64,000 bases of DNA from Clostridia bacterium (lineage in GTDB: Bacteria > Bacillota > Clostridia > Christensenellales > UMGS416), in contig JAFGUF010000039.1 in the NCBI GenBank assembly GCA_016938675.1, forward strand, positions 1-64,000. Reading direction: 5' to 3'. The notes under the pieces are model-generated. The model had not been told where the DNA came from. It ran no database searches and saw nothing but the letters and a program-made list of their open reading frames with translations. Shown here one piece after another: positions 35,649 through 45,653 of this stretch. Position 1 is the stretch's first letter, and every line of letters begins with the position of its first letter. The translations under genes and the position numbers were made by a program.

Positions 35649-35779
35649 TTGACAAAGCGCTCCTTGCATCTTTGCATATATTTTATCATATTATCCGATT
35701 AAATAATAAATATTTACATTATTTCAGAATAATTATATTATAATGTTATTGCGCAAGGTAAATAAATCTGGAGATTTTA

Positions 35780-37408
35780 ATGAATTCAAAAACAAAATTA
35801 ATTCTGATAATTATTGTTATTGTAATGCTTGCAACAGTTTTGCTGCTGCTTATTAACCATATGGCCTGCGCCGACGGAGAAGCACCGCAGAGCCTGCTAT
35901 CTATAGATGCAAAGATGTCAGCCCTCTATCAGGCCGTGATAAAGCCCTTCGTTAAAGCATTTGACTACGTAAAATACGTATTCCAAAAAGCATCTGCCAT
36001 TCAAACCGCTGAATACCCCTCGGGTTACCTTCCTCTTTATCCTGATAGCAGAGTGCTTGAATATTCATTTGACCCAATTACAAATTCACTGAGCATTGTT
36101 TCCGGCACAAATGACAGCTTTAGTCAAATAAGTTCATTCTATGACGGTTTGTTTTCCGGTCAGATTGCCGCTGACTACCTGAGGCAGTTTAAGAACGAAA
36201 GCAGCTATACAATATACGGAATGATAGGCAATTTCGCTTTTTTGTCCGAAATTCAGCCTTCCGACAGCAAAAAATACGGATACGAAATTGACACAGAGCT
36301 TCACTATCTCAAAGGTGGGGAGCTTGCAATGGAGAACTTTTTCCGGAAGCTAAACAGCTCTTCCGCGTTTATATATTCAAACCCTTATATTTATATGTAT
36401 CAGAAAACCGGCGATGAGCAGAGTATATACCTGCAATTAAGGGATTATAAATCCCAATTGCTTAACCTAAATACTAGTGTTGAACTATATATTGATAATG
36501 AGCTTTATGCCAAAAGGTATTACGGTGACACTATAAGAATGTCAATCTCGGAGCTTTCTTCTATCCATAGAATAATGATGGTGGCATATGACAGCTATAA
36601 CTGTATACGCGCAGTTGATGTAATGGAGAATGCTCTTTGCTATGATGCGTCAGGACAAACGGATTTTTACGCGCTTGTATCAGATTTTTCAAAAGCTGAT
36701 CATCTCTATATATACAATACAGAATCTATAGTCGATATTTCATACCTGATATATTTTTCAGAACTAAAAAGCCTCTTTCTCGAAGGCGGAAATGAAGCAA
36801 AAAACTATACAACAATTTTAAGCCTGCCCAGTTTAAAAAGGCTTTTCATCAAAGATATCAGTGATCCAATGATATATAAGCTGAATGTACTCAACGGCTT
36901 GGAAGTGCTTCAGATTGATACCTGCGGTCTTAATCTAAGCCTGGGAGACGATTTCGCCGCCCTTGCCTGCAGGGATATTGAATTAATTAACTGCCCCTAC
37001 TTAACCTTTGATGCAGGCGGAATACTGCCCGGCAATATGGAAAGGCTTTCGATTTCGCGCAATTATTCGCTTTCTGATATAGCATTTGTATCAGCATACC
37101 CGAATATGCATGTATTGGAGTTATCCGACTGTGACGGTATGATAACATTGCTGAATACATCCAGCCTTCCAAATCTCAACATGCTGACTATCTCCGGCTG
37201 CCGGGTTTTTGATCTTTCGCAGCCCCTTTCCGGCATGCCAATGCTTATGAATACAGCTTTGAAGAACAATCCTACTTTAGCATCCGCTGATGATTCCTTC
37301 CTCAATTCATTCTGGGCCAGCGAAAACGTGATTGCTTTCTCCGTGTCAGGCTGCGGCAACGGAAGCGACATAGAGTATTCTGCGGAGCCCTGGAAGGAGG
37401 CGCAATAA
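35780..37408 (+). CDS. Hypothetical membrane-anchored protein with leucine-rich-repeat-like region
   Basis: 542 residues, function unknown. A single N-terminal hydrophobic helix (LILIIIVIVMLATVLLLLI, about 6-24) after MNSKTK suggests a membrane anchor or signal peptide, the rest lying outside. Residues about 30-310 are unlike anything I recognise and rich in Tyr and Ser. From about 312 to 520 the sequence falls into irregular leucine-rich-like units: LKSLFLEGGNE, LKRLFIKDISD, LEVLQIDTCGLN, MERLSISRNYSLSD, MHVLELSDCDG, LNMLTISGCRV. It has an unhurried start after TGGAGAT and is coupled to the next gene by one base. Possibly a surface interaction protein; inference. Confidence 0.8.
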   Translation: MNSKTKLILIIIVIVMLATVLLLLINHMACADGEAPQSLLSIDAKMSALYQAVIKPFVKAFDYVKYVFQKASAIQTAEYPSGYLPLYPDSRVLEYSFDPITNSLSIVSGTNDSFSQISSFYDGLFSGQIAADYLRQFKNESSYTIYGMIGNFAFLSEIQPSDSKKYGYEIDTELHYLKGGELAMENFFRKLNSSSAFIYSNPYIYMYQKTGDEQSIYLQLRDYKSQLLNLNTSVELYIDNELYAKRYYGDTIRMSISELSSIHRIMMVAYDSYNCIRAVDVMENALCYDASGQTDFYALVSDFSKADHLYIYNTESIVDISYLIYFSELKSLFLEGGNEAKNYTTILSLPSLKRLFIKDISDPMIYKLNVLNGLEVLQIDTCGLNLSLGDDFAALACRDIELINCPYLTFDAGGILPGNMERLSISRNYSLSDIAFVSAYPNMHVLELSDCDGMITLLNTSSLPNLNMLTISGCRVFDLSQPLSGMPMLMNTALKNNPTLASADDSFLNSFWASENVIAFSVSGCGNGSDIEYSAEPWKEAQ

Positions 37409-37409
37409 G

Positions 37410-38933
37410 GTGGAAAAATTTAAAAAAGCCCTGCTTGCACTCGCTGTCCTCTCGGGCTGCTTTATTGTTACTTCATTCAGCTATTATCTGCTCCTTCCCT
37501 TTGCAGATAATCAGCCGAGAAGCAATAGCGATATATACGCACAAAGGCTTTATGCCATAATGAACGCCACGGAGGATATATGCCCGATATATACTGACAT
37601 AAATAATCCCGTAATTGAGGAACTCAGCTGTATACTCGCATCTAATATGATAATTGACTATGGCACGCTTTCAGAAGAGTCTGTATTGGGTGAAATAGTC
37701 ACAGTGTCTGCCATGTTTATAGACCCGGAACTGGTGAAAATTGAAAATACCGCGGACTTTAACTACTCCGCTTACAACGAATACATCCCGCTGCTTGAAA
37801 AAAGAGCTATGGAGCAGCTCTATGGATTTGTAGGTGATGAATCACTGTATACAAAAGAATATACATTGCGTATAAAATTCGATGACGCAATTGACCCTCT
37901 TAACCCTAAAGCACAGGTAATCGCCGAAGACATTGAAAACATACAAAATGACAGCTATCAGGCAGCAGAAAATATATACTCAGATTACATAAGTAAGTCT
38001 GATATTTCAACGGCCTATTTCTGCCAGGCGATTAAGGAACTACCCCTTGATAATATCGCCGAAATATATAATGAAAACAACCCTGAAAACCAACTGACAG
38101 AGGAATGGCAAAAGTCGCTTTTCGCTGAGTACTCCAAGCAATACATTGATAACCTGATAATCGACGGAATAATTAAAGCGGGCACAAACAATGCAACCGC
38201 CAAGGCAACTATAAACTACAGCGCAGAACGCGGCGATGAAACAATAGACAAAGTATGCAATATGCTGCTTGAGTTTTATTATGAAAACAAACAGCCGCAA
38301 GTTGATAAATCGCAAGTGATCAAGGATTTCGGAAACCAGCTTATATCCTATCAATATAATAGTCAAACCGCTCTTTATGCAAAAAGCTTTGACTTCACTT
38401 ATTCTCAGCATCTAAATGAGTTTACAATAAATGATGATTTCTATGCAGAAATTGTGAATAATATATATGAAGAGTTCATATACTTTGAAGATATTTTTAA
38501 TTCATATTACCCTGTTATTGAAGAAAAATACTTCTTTACTGAAAGGCCGTTTGATGCAACCACCATCATTACTGACAATGCAGCAGGCAGCAGATACCGA
38601 GAAGTCAACATCAGCGTAAACAGCCTGTTCGACTGCTATATTAAGCTCTATTCATACGATACCACAAATGACAGCCTCAATTCCCTGATGCTTGAAGCCT
38701 ACATCAAATCCGGAGATTCACTGCAGGTTTTCATTCCTGAGGGAGATTATGTTTTCAAATACGCTACCGGCCCTGTATGGTATGGCAGCCTGTATCTTTT
38801 CTCTGACAGCGGACAGTATTTTGCGGCCTCAAATGTAATAAGCGTCCATGAATACATGATGACTACAGCCATTGAGCTGGGCAGCTCGGCTAGCAGCATA
38901 CCTGTTAATTCACAGACGCCTGATATTTTTTAA
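37410..38933 (+). CDS. Hypothetical membrane-anchored protein, partner of the LRR-like protein
   Basis: 507 residues, function unknown. The N-terminus KKALLALAVLSGCFIVTSFSYYLLLPF is a membrane segment; LSGC at 14-17 resembles a lipobox but the hydrophobic run continues, so a transmembrane anchor is likelier. The outside part is acidic and Asn/Tyr-rich. The last 130 residues hold a beta-rich domain with NISVNSLFDCYIKLYSYD and PEGDYVFKYATGPVWYGSLYLF, a pattern I recall from the C-termini of other uncharacterised Firmicute proteins. The GTG start is nine bases after GGAGG at the end of the previous gene, so the two are coupled. It faces pmbA. Confidence 0.8.
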   Translation: MEKFKKALLALAVLSGCFIVTSFSYYLLLPFADNQPRSNSDIYAQRLYAIMNATEDICPIYTDINNPVIEELSCILASNMIIDYGTLSEESVLGEIVTVSAMFIDPELVKIENTADFNYSAYNEYIPLLEKRAMEQLYGFVGDESLYTKEYTLRIKFDDAIDPLNPKAQVIAEDIENIQNDSYQAAENIYSDYISKSDISTAYFCQAIKELPLDNIAEIYNENNPENQLTEEWQKSLFAEYSKQYIDNLIIDGIIKAGTNNATAKATINYSAERGDETIDKVCNMLLEFYYENKQPQVDKSQVIKDFGNQLISYQYNSQTALYAKSFDFTYSQHLNEFTINDDFYAEIVNNIYEEFIYFEDIFNSYYPVIEEKYFFTERPFDATTIITDNAAGSRYREVNISVNSLFDCYIKLYSYDTTNDSLNSLMLEAYIKSGDSLQVFIPEGDYVFKYATGPVWYGSLYLFSDSGQYFAASNVISVHEYMMTTAIELGSSASSIPVNSQTPDIF

Positions 38934-38944
38934 AAGCTGTTATT

Positions 38945-40246
38945 CTAGAAGGATATTTTAGCTCCCTTGATTTTTATTATTCTTGGATGCTGATAATGTC
39001 CCGTTATGTCACTTTCTGCACAAAGAATCATACCTTTTTGTATATCTTCAATATTGCCTGTTACCGAGCCTCCTGTAATAGGCTTTTCAGTGCCGTCTGC
39101 CATGTGGTGCACGGCAAGGCGTATCTCTCCGCCGAAGTCCCCGGTCACTGCATCCATCTGGAAGTCTGAAAATCCAAATACTTCTATGCACTCGCCTTTC
39201 AGCATTTCATCATAATTGCCGCTTCCTGCATGTATACATACATTTGGTATTTCTCCTGTTATGTCAACATTGCAGTACTGGCTGTATCTGCTGCTTCCGT
39301 GATAGGCTAAGAGCCTGCCGTCCTTAATTAATGGCAGTTCTTTTAAAATAACGCCGTCTGCATCCACATATGCGGAATCTACAGAGTTTTTGATCTCCGG
39401 CTTCAATGTTATTGATATTTTATCCCCTGCAATATCGCTGCCCTGCACTTCGTCGCCTATCTTGGCCTGAGAATACTTTTTGTATACTGCCAAAGTATCC
39501 GACTTAAAAGTATAGTATGAAAATATCTCACACACGGCAGCTCCTCTTAAGACAACCGGAACCTCCTTGTTTATCTGAACTTTTTCTGCAATTGCCCTTT
39601 TTTCAACATTGATAAAATCGCCTTCAATTTTTCTCTTAAGGAATTCTTCATCAAATGAAGACACCTTTATCATGTCATATAGCTCTACGCTCTCTTTTTC
39701 GCCTTCGCAGTCAACCACCAGCTCTATAATAAGCTCCGGCTTTGTGTATGCTAAATCGACACCTTCGCTGTTAGCTACCCTTATGCTCTTTTGCTGCAGA
39801 AATATTTCCATGGAGTTCACACTGGCAGTGCGTTCACCGTCAATGCCGTATACCAGCTTTATTGTTTTTTCAATAGTTTCCATTCCGTTTTCGAAGTCAA
39901 TATTGCTTTCTATCTGCGGCAGTTGGCTATCGGACGGCTTTGCTAGGCTGTACACTTGGTTTTTGACCAGTCCGGCACTGTATATGCTGTCTTTTATGCA
40001 TTCTGCTATTTCCTCGTCACTCATGCCTGGAGCAGCCTTAAATACAGACGAGCCCAAAAATCTCTGCCCTGCATCCTCAATCTCTTTATATACTGTCACT
40101 CTGCAGTGCTCCACGCTTTTTGCGCGGTTCATGTCCATCCTGTCTTTAATGAAAAAAAGTTCCTTGGATTTAACCTGCTCATAGTTTATCAGCCATTTAT
40201 TGCTGCCGATCTCTTTTTCCAATATTTTTTTAAGTCTCTCAACCAT
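38945..40246 (-). CDS. pmbA: TldE/PmbA-type metalloprotease subunit
   Basis: 433 residues of the TldD/PmbA family, without the HExxxH zinc motif, so this is the non-catalytic PmbA (TldE) partner. C-terminal barrel motifs YSQYCNVDITGEIPNVCIHAGSG and GGEIRLAVHHMADGTEKPITGGSVTG are typical. In E. coli the TldD/E heterodimer degrades unfolded peptides and matures microcin B17. The start overlaps the tldD stop by one base, the usual tldD-pmbA pairing. Cytosolic. No peptide precursor gene is visible nearby. Confidence 0.9.
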   Translation of the reverse strand: MVERLKKILEKEIGSNKWLINYEQVKSKELFFIKDRMDMNRAKSVEHCRVTVYKEIEDAGQRFLGSSVFKAAPGMSDEEIAECIKDSIYSAGLVKNQVYSLAKPSDSQLPQIESNIDFENGMETIEKTIKLVYGIDGERTASVNSMEIFLQQKSIRVANSEGVDLAYTKPELIIELVVDCEGEKESVELYDMIKVSSFDEEFLKRKIEGDFINVEKRAIAEKVQINKEVPVVLRGAAVCEIFSYYTFKSDTLAVYKKYSQAKIGDEVQGSDIAGDKISITLKPEIKNSVDSAYVDADGVILKELPLIKDGRLLAYHGSSRYSQYCNVDITGEIPNVCIHAGSGNYDEMLKGECIEVFGFSDFQMDAVTGDFGGEIRLAVHHMADGTEKPITGGSVTGNIEDIQKGMILCAESDITGHYQHPRIIKIKGAKISF

Positions 40247-41673
40247 TATCCCAGCCTCGCTTTCGCCTTCAGGTATGTTCCTCCGATGGATGTCTTCACG
40301 AATTCCTTGTAGCCCTTTCCGCAGTATCCGCTGCCCGCCGTCTCAAGCTGCGTATCAGAAACCATAGATATTGATTTCAATATGTCAGGCACATATCCAG
40401 ATAAAAGTATGGGGCCAACTACCTTTCCGGTCAGTTTGCCTTCCTTTATTTCTCTTCCCCTCGATATCATGCACTGTATTCCCCAGTTCTTGGGGTCTTC
40501 CATTCCGCTGTCGTACTTCTCTAAAAGGTATCCGTACTTTATTGAGCCTATCATTTCATCAAGTTTGTCCTTGCCCGGCGCAAAGAAAGTATTCGTCATT
40601 CTGGCGTATGCCTTTCTTTCGAAGGATTCTCTTCTGCCATTGCCGGTTGGTTTGGTTCCCAGCTGCATTGCAGAGAGCAAATCGGAAATTCCGGCTTTTA
40701 ATATGCCGTTGTCTATAATCAGCGTATCACCGCCCTGTGTTCCTTCATCGTCAAATAAATAGCTTGCTACGTCCACAGCGCTCGTTGCTCCGTCATGCAT
40801 TCTCGTTACCTCAGATGCTACATATTTGTTCATGTATTCAGCACCCTTGGCCCTGTTTTTGACGAACATGTCCATCTCCACGCCGTGCCCGAACGCTTCG
40901 TGTGCAATCAGCCCTGCTACATCCGGGTCGCAGATTACGTCATATTCGCCCGGCTCTACAGGAGATGCGTCCAGCATCTCAATTGCTGTATCAATAGTTT
41001 TTTTGTATTTCTCTTTTACCTGTCCGAAGGTTGTCGCAGTCTCTCTTGCAGAGCTTGTATCATATGCGTATTTAAGCTTGCCCTCCCGCATTACAAAGCA
41101 GATTATCATCGCCGTTGAGAACGCATATGCCTGCTCAAGCTCCTTTTTTGAGCTGTAGAAGGCCTTTGATACAAATGTATCTTCATACCTTATGCTTGCA
41201 TTAACCAGAAGCTCGCTATACCCTTTAGCTTCCTCGATAATTCCTGTCATCTCATCCATTATCTTCTGTGGAGCCAGCTCTCCGCCGCCTGCTTCATACT
41301 CCGCTCTTTCGTTAAGTTCATCTTCTTCAACAAGGGGGTACTTAGTTATCGGCACGTTATAATCAGACAGCTGGTTTACTTCATTTTTCGCCGTCTCAAT
41401 TACGCCTTTTTTTACTTCGTCATAATTTTCTTCGTCAAATACGTCAAATGAATACTCGCTGTAGCATAAGCCGTTATATACTCTTGCTACATAGCCTCTT
41501 TCAAAAATCATGATGTCTGATATTCCGCTTGTTGAGAAATCTTTTTCGTATCTTTTGCCCTTCACGTCTGTTGCCAATACTGAAACGTATTCAAACTCCT
41601 CCGAAAGGTCAGCTATCAGTTTCTTAAGAAGGCTTTTCTTCTTTTTTATGTGTTCACTGAATTGTGCTTTCAT
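40246..41673 (-). CDS. tldD: Metalloprotease TldD
   Basis: Catalytic half of the TldD/TldE protease, 475 residues. The start MKAQFSEHIKKKKSLLKKL at 41673 follows AGGAG; a frame 54 bases longer lacks support. The zinc motif HEAFGH (HExxxH) is at about 257-262 in DVAGLIAHEAFGHGVEMD, with GGDTLIIDNGILKAGISDLLSA further on and the C-terminal Cys and Gly-rich segment GSGYCGKGYKEFVKTSIGG. It lies about 25 bases behind the mannosyltransferase gene. Substrate unknown. Confidence 0.93.
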   Translation of the reverse strand: MKAQFSEHIKKKKSLLKKLIADLSEEFEYVSVLATDVKGKRYEKDFSTSGISDIMIFERGYVARVYNGLCYSEYSFDVFDEENYDEVKKGVIETAKNEVNQLSDYNVPITKYPLVEEDELNERAEYEAGGGELAPQKIMDEMTGIIEEAKGYSELLVNASIRYEDTFVSKAFYSSKKELEQAYAFSTAMIICFVMREGKLKYAYDTSSARETATTFGQVKEKYKKTIDTAIEMLDASPVEPGEYDVICDPDVAGLIAHEAFGHGVEMDMFVKNRAKGAEYMNKYVASEVTRMHDGATSAVDVASYLFDDEGTQGGDTLIIDNGILKAGISDLLSAMQLGTKPTGNGRRESFERKAYARMTNTFFAPGKDKLDEMIGSIKYGYLLEKYDSGMEDPKNWGIQCMISRGREIKEGKLTGKVVGPILLSGYVPDILKSISMVSDTQLETAGSGYCGKGYKEFVKTSIGGTYLKAKARLG

Positions 41674-41696
41674 TTTTTTCTCCTTATTTTTTATTT

Positions 41697-44600
41697 TTAG
41701 TATGTAAACCACCATGTAGGCATCCATTTAAGTATGCTGCCATAGGCGCTAGATATCTCTGCTCCTGCGATAACCGGATAGAACAGCACGAACAACGCCA
41801 GAACTATCGCCATATATGCATATGTATACTCTTTTCGGTATCTTTTCTTTTCTTCAAAGGTTCTTATCATCATTACTGTCATCAATATTATAAAAGGTAC
41901 TGAAGCAAAATAATGATATATAAATGTAGACCTAGTTATAAACATCCACGGCACATACTGCGCCAGGAATGCTATCGTCAGAAAGAGCTTCATCTTGTCC
42001 GTCTTCCGCGTTCTAAACATTGTAATGAGCATCCATAGAAATGCCAAAACTCCTGCCCACCAGACTGCCGGGTTGCCTAATGCCGCTATCGATGTCATTC
42101 TGCCCATGCCCTGCAGTGAATTATCCGAGTAATACCACATTGGCTTTATGATCAGCGGCCATTCATACCACGGAGATGCAAACGGGTGCTCGGAATTCAG
42201 CCCGCTGTGGTAGCTAAACATATACTTTTGCGAGTTAATAATGTACTCGATGCCTCTGCCCTCTTCAACCTTGAGGATAGGTATGTAGGACGCCGCGTAG
42301 ATAGCTAGAGGTATTACTATGAAGAAAACAATGCATAACGTGATTGTTATCAACGTATTCTTTTTAAAGCTTTTTCTTATGTGCTCTGCCTGCTCTTCGT
42401 CAATCCCTGTTTCTTCTGCTTTGCTTCTGTTTACCATATTGTACTCAATGTATCTTCTGATAATCGTATAGAAGAAAATAACTGCAAGCCCAGCTCCTGC
42501 GTATAGCCCTATCCATTTGCTCGCTGCACCAAGTCCAAAAAATACTCCAGAGAAAAACAGCGGTATAAGTGTCTTAAAAAGCGATGTCTTATAAAAGCTC
42601 ATTCTGTAGTATATTCCCATGCAAAGGAACATAAGCATAATGAAGAATACTCCATAGCTGTCTATCGTGGCTATCCTTGTCTGGGTAAAGTGCATAAAGT
42701 CAAATGCCATCAGAAATGCGGCTATCGTGGCATATCTGGTCTTTTTAAACACGACCATTCCCAGCAGATACATAACAGGTATCATGAGTATGCCCACAAT
42801 CGTACCCATAAACCTCCAGCCAAATGGGTTCATTCCGAACATCCTTATCCCCAGGCTCATTATCACTTTCCCCAGAGGCGGGTGTGTGGTCTCGTATGGG
42901 TTGTAGTACATTATGTGCTCCCAGGCTGTACCAGCATGGTATATCTCATCAAAATATGTTGAGTTCATGTATGTATTTCTGTCGGGCACGGTGCCTTGCT
43001 CGTCGAACAAAAGTATCGCGTCCGCTGCATCAGGGCTTGATATTATTATATCGCTGATTGGTATCGCCTTCCCGTCAGCACCGATGAAAACCATCTCAAC
43101 CAGCCTCAAAAGCGGCTTATGCAATGTTATTCTGGCATACCTTGCAGTATCCTGCCCATCCATCTCATACCATTTGAATATCGCGGGATAATTAGAAAAC
43201 ATTATCTCGGAGTCTGACCAGGACAGATTGTACTCGTCCACTATCTCCGGCCTCAGGTTTTCAAGCTTGCTCTCATCGTCAATCCTGTAATAGTATGAAG
43301 TATGGTACGCATCTTCCATGTTTTCATCCGCAAAATCTACAGTGAAGTTCGATCCATTGGTGCCCTGGGCCCTGAAAAACATAATCTTGTCTATTTCAAC
43401 TTCTTCGCCAAAATCAACAATAACTTCCTGTTCAAACTGGGTAACATTCCACATCGTTTCAGGGCCGTAATTATTGCCGAGATGATAAAATGCGACTACT
43501 GCGTAAACCAAAGACAATACGCCCATTATAATCCAGTCCTTTTTGCCAAGCGACTTGAATAGCCCTGTATACTTCGGGCTGTTTATTTCTTCTATTGTGC
43601 TTTCTTTTGCCGCCTGCCTGGCCGAACTTCTCTCTTCCTTCATTATACGGTCATTTTCTTCCTGTCTTTTTGCGTCCACAGGCTTTAGTCCTACATATAT
43701 CATGTATATGTATCCTGCCAACGCAGACAGGGATATGACAGCCGTCCATAGGAACATACTGTTTGTCGAAATCCACTCTGCAAAGCTCTGCTTAGCCATC
43801 ATGCTCTGCATAAATCCGCCTAGACGGAAGCCAAACATATACTGATTAGCCAGCACTATTGATGTATTTGCAAACTGAGTAAGCGTGAATATGCCAAACA
43901 AAACAAAGTGCCTTCTGTCCTTTGTATAGATATACGAAATCAGCAGCAGTGCCATAGCAGTATACATATACCTTTCATGCATCTTGCCTGCCAGCATAAA
44001 TATGCCTGTCACCAGAAGCGCAGCATTGAAGAATATGTTTTTCCTGCTCCTGTCTTTGAAGGACACTACGAAAAATATAATGACCGCAATGCCCATTCCT
44101 ATCCATCCCCATACGCTGTATGTGGCGCCAAGGAAAGCCGCGTCTACTCTCTCCCACATTCCGCCCATTAATGGCCAGATGTTACAAGCATTCAATGATA
44201 CGGATGAATATGACGAAAGAATCTCGATAAACAGGTTTATAATATACAGAGGGCCTCTTGAAATAATTACCGGAATGGATATTAGTGCGAATGCCGCTAT
44301 TCCCGCAGCCGTCCCCTTTAAAAATTCCAGCACACCTTTCCAGAAGCCTTTTTCTTTCATGTAGAATATAACTGCCGTAATGTATACAAACACGAAAAAG
44401 CCCATCTGCGGCTTAATCAGGACACCTGCTCCCAGAAAAGCGCCTGCGGCGACGAAATTTTTCTTGTTAAGGAATACTACATAGCCGGTTACCATCAGTG
44501 CCAGAACGCTGTCTATCTGTCCCCACGCTGCTGAGTCCGTGATAATCGCAGGGGAAAGGTAATATATTGATGCAAGCAGCAAAGCAGCTTTTTCATTCAG

Positions 44601-45653
44601 CTTGCTTTTTGCAATTTTGTATATAATCAAAGACATGGCTATGTCCGCTAAAATCGGAGGAATCTTTACAGTGGCTGCAGCGTTCTCAGCAAAGAACGGT
44701 ATTTTATTCAGCCAGCCTATTACGTAAAGGACATACATATATCCCGGCGGATAGTCAACAAAGGAGCTTCCGTCATAAATCCCCGCTATGCCCCTGTCCG
44801 CTGCAATAGACGACCAGCCCAGCCAGCAGCCGATATCGTTGGGATATCCCGCCACAGCCACAGCTAAGACTGACCTGATTAAAAGCCCCATGAGAATGAT
44901 TACCGCGAACATGGCCCTATATAGCCTGCCGTCTTCTTCTTTTGTCAGCTTATCTTCATCATAATCCAAAGATTGCTTTATGAAAAAAAACGCTGCAATA
45001 AAGATAATTGAAATCAATACCATCCAGCCGGAAAACTTCACTTTTCCTTCTTCGCTTACTGCGGCTTTCTGCGGCTTGCTTTCCTCCAGGCTGTATACAG
45101 CGACGCCCTCAGGCGCTTCCTCCACCTTTTCAAGCCTGATGTCATCGAACCAGGCTGTTCCCATGCTTTCATTGGAGTATCCGCCCAGCCTTGCAAACAC
45201 AGTAAGGGTTTCCTGACCTTTTGCGGTCTTTCCGTAAAGCTCCACATATCTGTACTGCCCATCCGTATCGAATAGTTCCTCAGTATAAAAGAACATATTC
45301 TCATATGATAGGTTTGCGCCCTTTCCGTAGCTTGAATCTTCAACCTTTATATATCCGGAAAGTTTATATACCTGCTTTGGTTCAACCTTTACAGTCTGCT
45401 TCATCTTTGCATCATTAAGGGATGTATTTTCAATTTTCAGCACATGGTTTCCGCCCTCATCCTCTATGCTGATATTGGTGAAGCCCTCTATCTGTACCCA
45501 GACGTCCTTATCCCAGAATTCATACAAGTCGCCTTCAAATCCGCCGTCACTTATTAAATTGACGCCGTAATCCTGCACCTCTGCCTTGCCGCAGCCTGAT
45601 AGTAATATTAAAATTGCCGAAAATAATATAATGAAAATTAATCTTCTCTTCAC
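41697..45653 (-). CDS. Giant fusion: carbohydrate-binding-like lipoprotein, GT-C glycosyltransferase and protein mannosyltransferase (PMT) domain
   Basis: 1318 residues. The N-terminal signal ends in lipobox LLSGC (Cys21). Residues about 30-175 resemble a CBM_4_9 carbohydrate-binding domain (LISDGGFEGDLYEFWD). A polytopic GT-C module spans about 205-690, with the loop YPNDIGCWLGWSS and VDYPPGYMYVLYVIG. An F5/8-type-C-like outside domain follows (about 725-860). The C-terminal GT39 (PMT) module has DEIYHAGTAWEH (about 901) and THPPLGK (about 922), the dolichyl/polyprenyl-phosphate-mannose transferase motifs. Predicted role: O-mannosylation of exported proteins. The GTG start follows GGAGG. Substrates unknown; two transferase modules in one chain are unusual. 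Confidence 0.85.
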   Translation of the reverse strand: MKRRLIFIILFSAILILLSGCGKAEVQDYGVNLISDGGFEGDLYEFWDKDVWVQIEGFTNISIEDEGGNHVLKIENTSLNDAKMKQTVKVEPKQVYKLSGYIKVEDSSYGKGANLSYENMFFYTEELFDTDGQYRYVELYGKTAKGQETLTVFARLGGYSNESMGTAWFDDIRLEKVEEAPEGVAVYSLEESKPQKAAVSEEGKVKFSGWMVLISIIFIAAFFFIKQSLDYDEDKLTKEEDGRLYRAMFAVIILMGLLIRSVLAVAVAGYPNDIGCWLGWSSIAADRGIAGIYDGSSFVDYPPGYMYVLYVIGWLNKIPFFAENAAATVKIPPILADIAMSLIIYKIAKSKLNEKAALLLASIYYLSPAIITDSAAWGQIDSVLALMVTGYVVFLNKKNFVAAGAFLGAGVLIKPQMGFFVFVYITAVIFYMKEKGFWKGVLEFLKGTAAGIAAFALISIPVIISRGPLYIINLFIEILSSYSSVSLNACNIWPLMGGMWERVDAAFLGATYSVWGWIGMGIAVIIFFVVSFKDRSRKNIFFNAALLVTGIFMLAGKMHERYMYTAMALLLISYIYTKDRRHFVLFGIFTLTQFANTSIVLANQYMFGFRLGGFMQSMMAKQSFAEWISTNSMFLWTAVISLSALAGYIYMIYVGLKPVDAKRQEENDRIMKEERSSARQAAKESTIEEINSPKYTGLFKSLGKKDWIIMGVLSLVYAVVAFYHLGNNYGPETMWNVTQFEQEVIVDFGEEVEIDKIMFFRAQGTNGSNFTVDFADENMEDAYHTSYYYRIDDESKLENLRPEIVDEYNLSWSDSEIMFSNYPAIFKWYEMDGQDTARYARITLHKPLLRLVEMVFIGADGKAIPISDIIISSPDAADAILLFDEQGTVPDRNTYMNSTYFDEIYHAGTAWEHIMYYNPYETTHPPLGKVIMSLGIRMFGMNPFGWRFMGTIVGILMIPVMYLLGMVVFKKTRYATIAAFLMAFDFMHFTQTRIATIDSYGVFFIMLMFLCMGIYYRMSFYKTSLFKTLIPLFFSGVFFGLGAASKWIGLYAGAGLAVIFFYTIIRRYIEYNMVNRSKAEETGIDEEQAEHIRKSFKKNTLITITLCIVFFIVIPLAIYAASYIPILKVEEGRGIEYIINSQKYMFSYHSGLNSEHPFASPWYEWPLIIKPMWYYSDNSLQGMGRMTSIAALGNPAVWWAGVLAFLWMLITMFRTRKTDKMKLFLTIAFLAQYVPWMFITRSTFIYHYFASVPFIILMTVMMIRTFEEKKRYRKEYTYAYMAIVLALFVLFYPVIAGAEISSAYGSILKWMPTWWFTY

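Follow-up and report, generated by a model that had tools for sequence, protein, structure and literature searches.

Two adjacent genes for membrane-anchored proteins, one of them with leucine-rich-like repeats, raise the question of whether they encode an undescribed surface system that is conserved as a pair, or a local combination of parts that also occur without each other. The genes lie in a stretch of 64,000 nucleotides (the window), which corresponds to contig C17 in a draft genome of 2.62 Mb. We refer to their products as P1 and P2.

A closely coupled gene pair

The two open reading frames agree exactly with their description in an earlier note, in coordinates, lengths, strand, the gap of a single base (37409) and the GTG start. 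The layout is as follows.

35713..35741, plus strand: candidate sigma-70-type promoter for the pair (TTTACA-17-TATTAT)
35770..35773, plus strand: Shine-Dalgarno sequence GGAG of gene 1, read from the sequence
35780..37408, plus strand: gene 1, 542 residues, with a transmembrane anchor, a membrane-proximal alpha/beta domain, a beta-rich linker and internalin-type leucine-rich repeats (LRR)
37394..37400, plus strand: Shine-Dalgarno sequence AAGGAGG of gene 2, read from the sequence, inside the end of gene 1
37410..38933, plus strand: gene 2, 507 residues, GTG start, with a transmembrane or lipobox-like N-terminus, a helical orphan region and a WYG domain

This arrangement is a direct observation, and the close coupling that had been proposed was upheld by the 1-base gap and by the position of the gene 2 Shine-Dalgarno sequence within gene 1. 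The spacing between AAGGAGG and the start codon at 37410 is 9 nt, and translational coupling is therefore plausible. The candidate promoter is proposed from its position alone; sigma-70-type sites were as numerous in the region as in shuffled sequences.

Genes 1 and 2 form a plus-strand unit, with a radical-SAM gene pointing away on one side and converging TldE/TldD-like genes on the other. For both reading frames, codon usage and GC3 fell inside the spread shown by the remaining genes of the window, toward its lower side. The TldE/TldD-like metallopeptidase pair that adjoins gene 2 lies at 38945-41727, and its TldE-like protein was not found in any of the seven other genomes of the family. 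On the minus strand, 41697-45653 encodes a protein of 1318 residues, the C-terminal part of which matches protein O-mannosyltransferase (PMT E 7.7e-15, PMT_4TMC E 2.9e-24) and the N-terminal half of which weakly matches GT87. Judged by these matches, the chain would seem to combine two glycosyltransferases of GT-C type.

Domains of protein 1

The single N-terminal membrane segment that the earlier note had assigned to each protein was confirmed (mean KD 3.6 over residues 7-25 of P1, KD 1.9 over about residues 7-29 of P2). The features of P1 are listed below.

35798..35854, plus strand: hydrophobic anchor, residues 7-25, a single segment without a clear lipobox
36005..36307, plus strand: N-domain, residues 76-176, lineage-restricted and membrane-proximal (alignments A1 and A7), with a weak fold resemblance to DcrB/EagT6
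36452..36646, plus strand: predicted beta-rich linker, residues about 225-289, also aligned in the relative L031
36692..37348, plus strand: predicted LRR solenoid, residues about 305-523, with a 23-residue period, of internalin/SDS22 type

The N-domain, with the order beta-beta-alpha-beta4 predicted in the AF2 model, had no match in Pfam or NCBIfam, and its alignment is too divergent to support a pattern scan. A profile built from six domains, P1 among them, identified 9 copies in the genome itself, 1 in G004 and 4 in G002. P1, itself contained in the model, matched this profile with E 9.6e-30, and an independent single-sequence match reached E 9.7e-7. Outside the family, the profile found five N-domains in tandem in G027 and one weak match in G120, on an unrelated-looking protein, which may be due to chance. 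The G027 copies, in another family of the order, belong to five tandem lipoprotein-like genes (L073, G027:C13:5000-20000), most of which carry repeated outer parts that look beta-rich.

The sharing of this domain is likewise observed directly. The other N-domain proteins of the genome are lipoproteins with lipobox-like GC motifs at their start, and their outer parts differ, being made of Sel1 repeats, of a periplasmic sugar-binding domain or of beta-rich stretches without assignment, among them one suggestive of a solute-binding protein. In P1 and in the lipoproteins of alignments A1 and A7 (own genome, G002, G004 and G027), the same membrane-proximal domain follows soon after the anchor. P1 differs from them in having a transmembrane helix, where HMAC comes after a long hydrophobic run and does not form a clear lipobox, and in being coupled to a second gene. 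Single-sequence searches of 61 relatives and 396 genomes of the order returned only domain-level matches to P1 and none over its full length. The only LRR relative with the same domain architecture is L031 (G002, contig C54), which shares N-domain, linker and LRR with P1 (24% identity over 485 columns), carries a lipobox and matches LRR_4 with E 3.7e-21.

The LRR-like units that had been noticed at about residues 312-520 correspond to a predicted solenoid at about 305-523, which was recovered by sequence pattern, AlphaFold and Foldseek. The pattern itself is plain from the sequence: LxxLxLxx[N/C] sites occur 8 times in residues 300-530, as compared to 1.15 +/- 1.0 in shuffles, and none of 20,000 shuffles had as many. 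The 8 sites and two looser ones lie on a 22/23-residue grid (329, 352, 374, 420, 443 and 466, with 397 missing). In the AF2 model, strands lie at 308, 331, 354, 376, 422, 445 and 468, mostly every 22-23 residues. The mean pLDDT of the model is 67, with values below 50 at 384-404 and 484-518, which are parts of the LRR. Pfam LRR_4 matched P1 with E 7.5e-5, below the gathering score; a match to FNIP_C was also below threshold and was rejected. Comparison by VIA gave Z scores of 12-14 to many LRR chains, although for repeats a Z below about 13 may mean merely a common arrangement.

P1 thus has the tandem LxxLxLxxN units of 20-29 residues and the predicted beta/alpha solenoid that define LRR proteins of SDS22/internalin type. 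Its best Foldseek matches were InlA and other internalins (E 2.1e-5), with InlA, InlC2 and InlF of Listeria and LRR proteins of Leptospira at the top, all of which are, like P1, surface proteins with an LRR solenoid of 22/23-residue period. We nevertheless rejected membership in the Listeria-type internalins, which are characterized by an N-terminal helical cap, LRR, an Ig-like inter-repeat region after the LRR and a wall anchor. In P1, an alpha/beta domain and a linker precede the LRR, the anchor is an N-terminal transmembrane segment, neither an internalin cap nor a C-terminal wall anchor was seen, and about 20 residues separate the last LRR strand from the end of the protein.

Protein 2 and the WYG domain

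At the N-terminus of P2, LSGC (residues 14-17) is lipobox-like, yet more hydrophobic residues follow, so that the sequence would fit either a lipid or a transmembrane anchor. Two regions follow.

37530..38543, plus strand: orphan region, residues about 41-378, predicted with low confidence to be mostly helical
38550..38880, plus strand: WYG domain, residues about 381-490, predicted Ig/FnIII-like beta-sandwich (alignment A2)

No relatives of residues 41-378 were detected in the genomes of the order or in further searches, and no full-length P2 was found by single-sequence search in the 61 relatives and 396 order genomes. Outside the WYG domain, the model of P2 is of low quality (mean pLDDT 53.8). 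P2 was also absent from the genome contigs, plasmids and phages searched, and neither P1 nor P2 matched PHROGs; an origin of the pair from a phage or plasmid is unsupported by these searches. A possible P2-like region (G000:C29, E 0.016) was dismissed, as the stretch reads as an electron-transport (rnf-like) operon.

The beta-rich C-terminal domain with the YATG..WYG pattern was found where it had been expected, at about residues 380-480, with pLDDT blocks of 78-94 over 401-480. The predicted sandwich is FnIII-like, with VIA Z scores up to 7.2, which alone may mean merely a common arrangement; Foldseek gave no match below 1e-3. The motif P.G.Y......G..W[YF]G....F within it is common to P2 and 17 proteins outside its own genome. 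WYG domains were detected in 13 of 396 genomes of the order and 6 of 245 of the class, the own genome being counted in both. They matched no Pfam or NCBIfam family, and nothing was found in the literature on either the WYG domain or the N-domain.

The carriers are otherwise unrelated anchored proteins with zinc ribbons and TPR-like repeats, SH3, peptidoglycan-binding, DUF3048 or J domains. What P2 shares with these WYG beta-sandwich proteins of Clostridia type is the motif; for the region upstream of its WYG domain, no counterpart was detected among them. BLASTP of P2 against L020, which is of similar length and also carries a WYG domain, aligned that domain only. We also note that L045 and L046 (G404 and G539), which apparently span the membrane, have a J-domain-like start and a C-terminal WYG domain; NCBIfam DnaJ models confirmed the J domain of L045. 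The J domain would presumably be inside and the WYG domain outside. The earlier note had recognized neither P1 nor P2 as a whole, but neither is wholly unknown: the N-domain recurs in the genome and the WYG domain across the class.

Distribution and possible role of the pair

An undescribed system with conserved pairing was not supported, because the two genes did not co-occur in any other genome searched. Among the eight family genomes covered, several of them incomplete, no WYG domain was found in G002 or any other besides the pair's own. A simple pattern scan detected no LRR-rich reading frame in the examined neighbourhoods of 17 WYG genes. As no other searched genome pairs gene 1 with gene 2, the functional partnership of P1 and P2 is suggested by the gene arrangement alone. 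Of the proposed surface pair, the coupling, the membrane anchors, the probable outward orientation and the LRR solenoid of P1 stand, and the conserved system finds no support.

The explanation that we prefer, with about even confidence, is an operon of two surface-protein genes specific to the lineage: P1 would be an anchored LRR protein for binding or adhesion and P2 a co-produced accessory, possibly an interacting partner. A single helix would anchor P1 in the membrane, and after it would come the membrane-proximal alpha/beta domain that recurs in several of the bacterium's surface lipoproteins, then the linker and finally an LRR predicted to face outward. The LRR may bind a protein or glycan ligand on the cell's own envelope, a neighbouring cell, a host or a food matrix. 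P2, anchored at its N-terminus and ending in an outer module of many unrelated anchored proteins, would be made in step with P1 by translational coupling and could sit beside it as an accessory subunit.

A less probable, though serious, alternative is that co-transcription is all that links P1 and P2, surface proteins with roles of their own, and that the LRR protein acts alone. L031 argues for it: this protein, with the same N-domain, linker and LRR as P1, is the product of a lone lipoprotein gene, flanked by no gene in the same direction, and appears to act without a partner in a genome in which no WYG domain was found. G002, however, is only 68% complete, even if the immediate neighbourhood of L031 was read, and tight coupling of the kind seen here, with a Shine-Dalgarno sequence inside the upstream gene, often accompanies linked function.

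It is unlikely that the pair monitors or maintains the envelope, with a DcrB-like domain in P1, a WYG partner and an LRR that binds a component of the cell's own envelope. The resemblance to the Mog1p/PsbP/DcrB-like fold (Foldseek probability 0.99, E 9.6e-3 to DcrB, 6e8a; E 0.01-0.04 across DcrB and EagT6) most likely runs via the P1 N-domain and is a weak lead from model comparison. It would also fit that WYG domains occur on SH3 or peptidoglycan-binding proteins and on transmembrane proteins that carry a zinc ribbon or a J domain. However, the domain scan found no signalling domain in P1 or P2, and the N-domain profile detected no sequence similarity to DcrB among PDB sequences; the VIA table for P1 is filled by LRR chains, and the absence of DcrB from it is uninformative. 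We consider it improbable that P1 and P2 form an obligate anchored complex, private to the lineage and drawn from a modular surface-protein toolkit, in which LRR and WYG domain jointly recognize a specific partner on another cell or host. A self-contained recognition system in which the LRR of P1 binds P2, for example between neighbouring cells, follows the earlier note's idea of parts that bind each other and would suit two closely coupled genes with probably outward-facing products, but is highly improbable given that the pair is not conserved and that L031 has no partner.

On the preferred reading of an accessory-bearing surface operon, P1 and P2 look like fairly ordinary surface proteins built from modules found elsewhere. 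For the pair itself to be of importance, both a complex and a ligand would have to be demonstrated. The interest of the locus is mainly that it illustrates how surface proteins of little-studied Clostridia-like bacteria evolve by modules, with one membrane-proximal domain unmatched in Pfam and NCBIfam that carries outer modules of LRR, Sel1, sugar-binding or unassigned beta-rich kind. Both this N-domain and the scattered WYG domain could be described as families.
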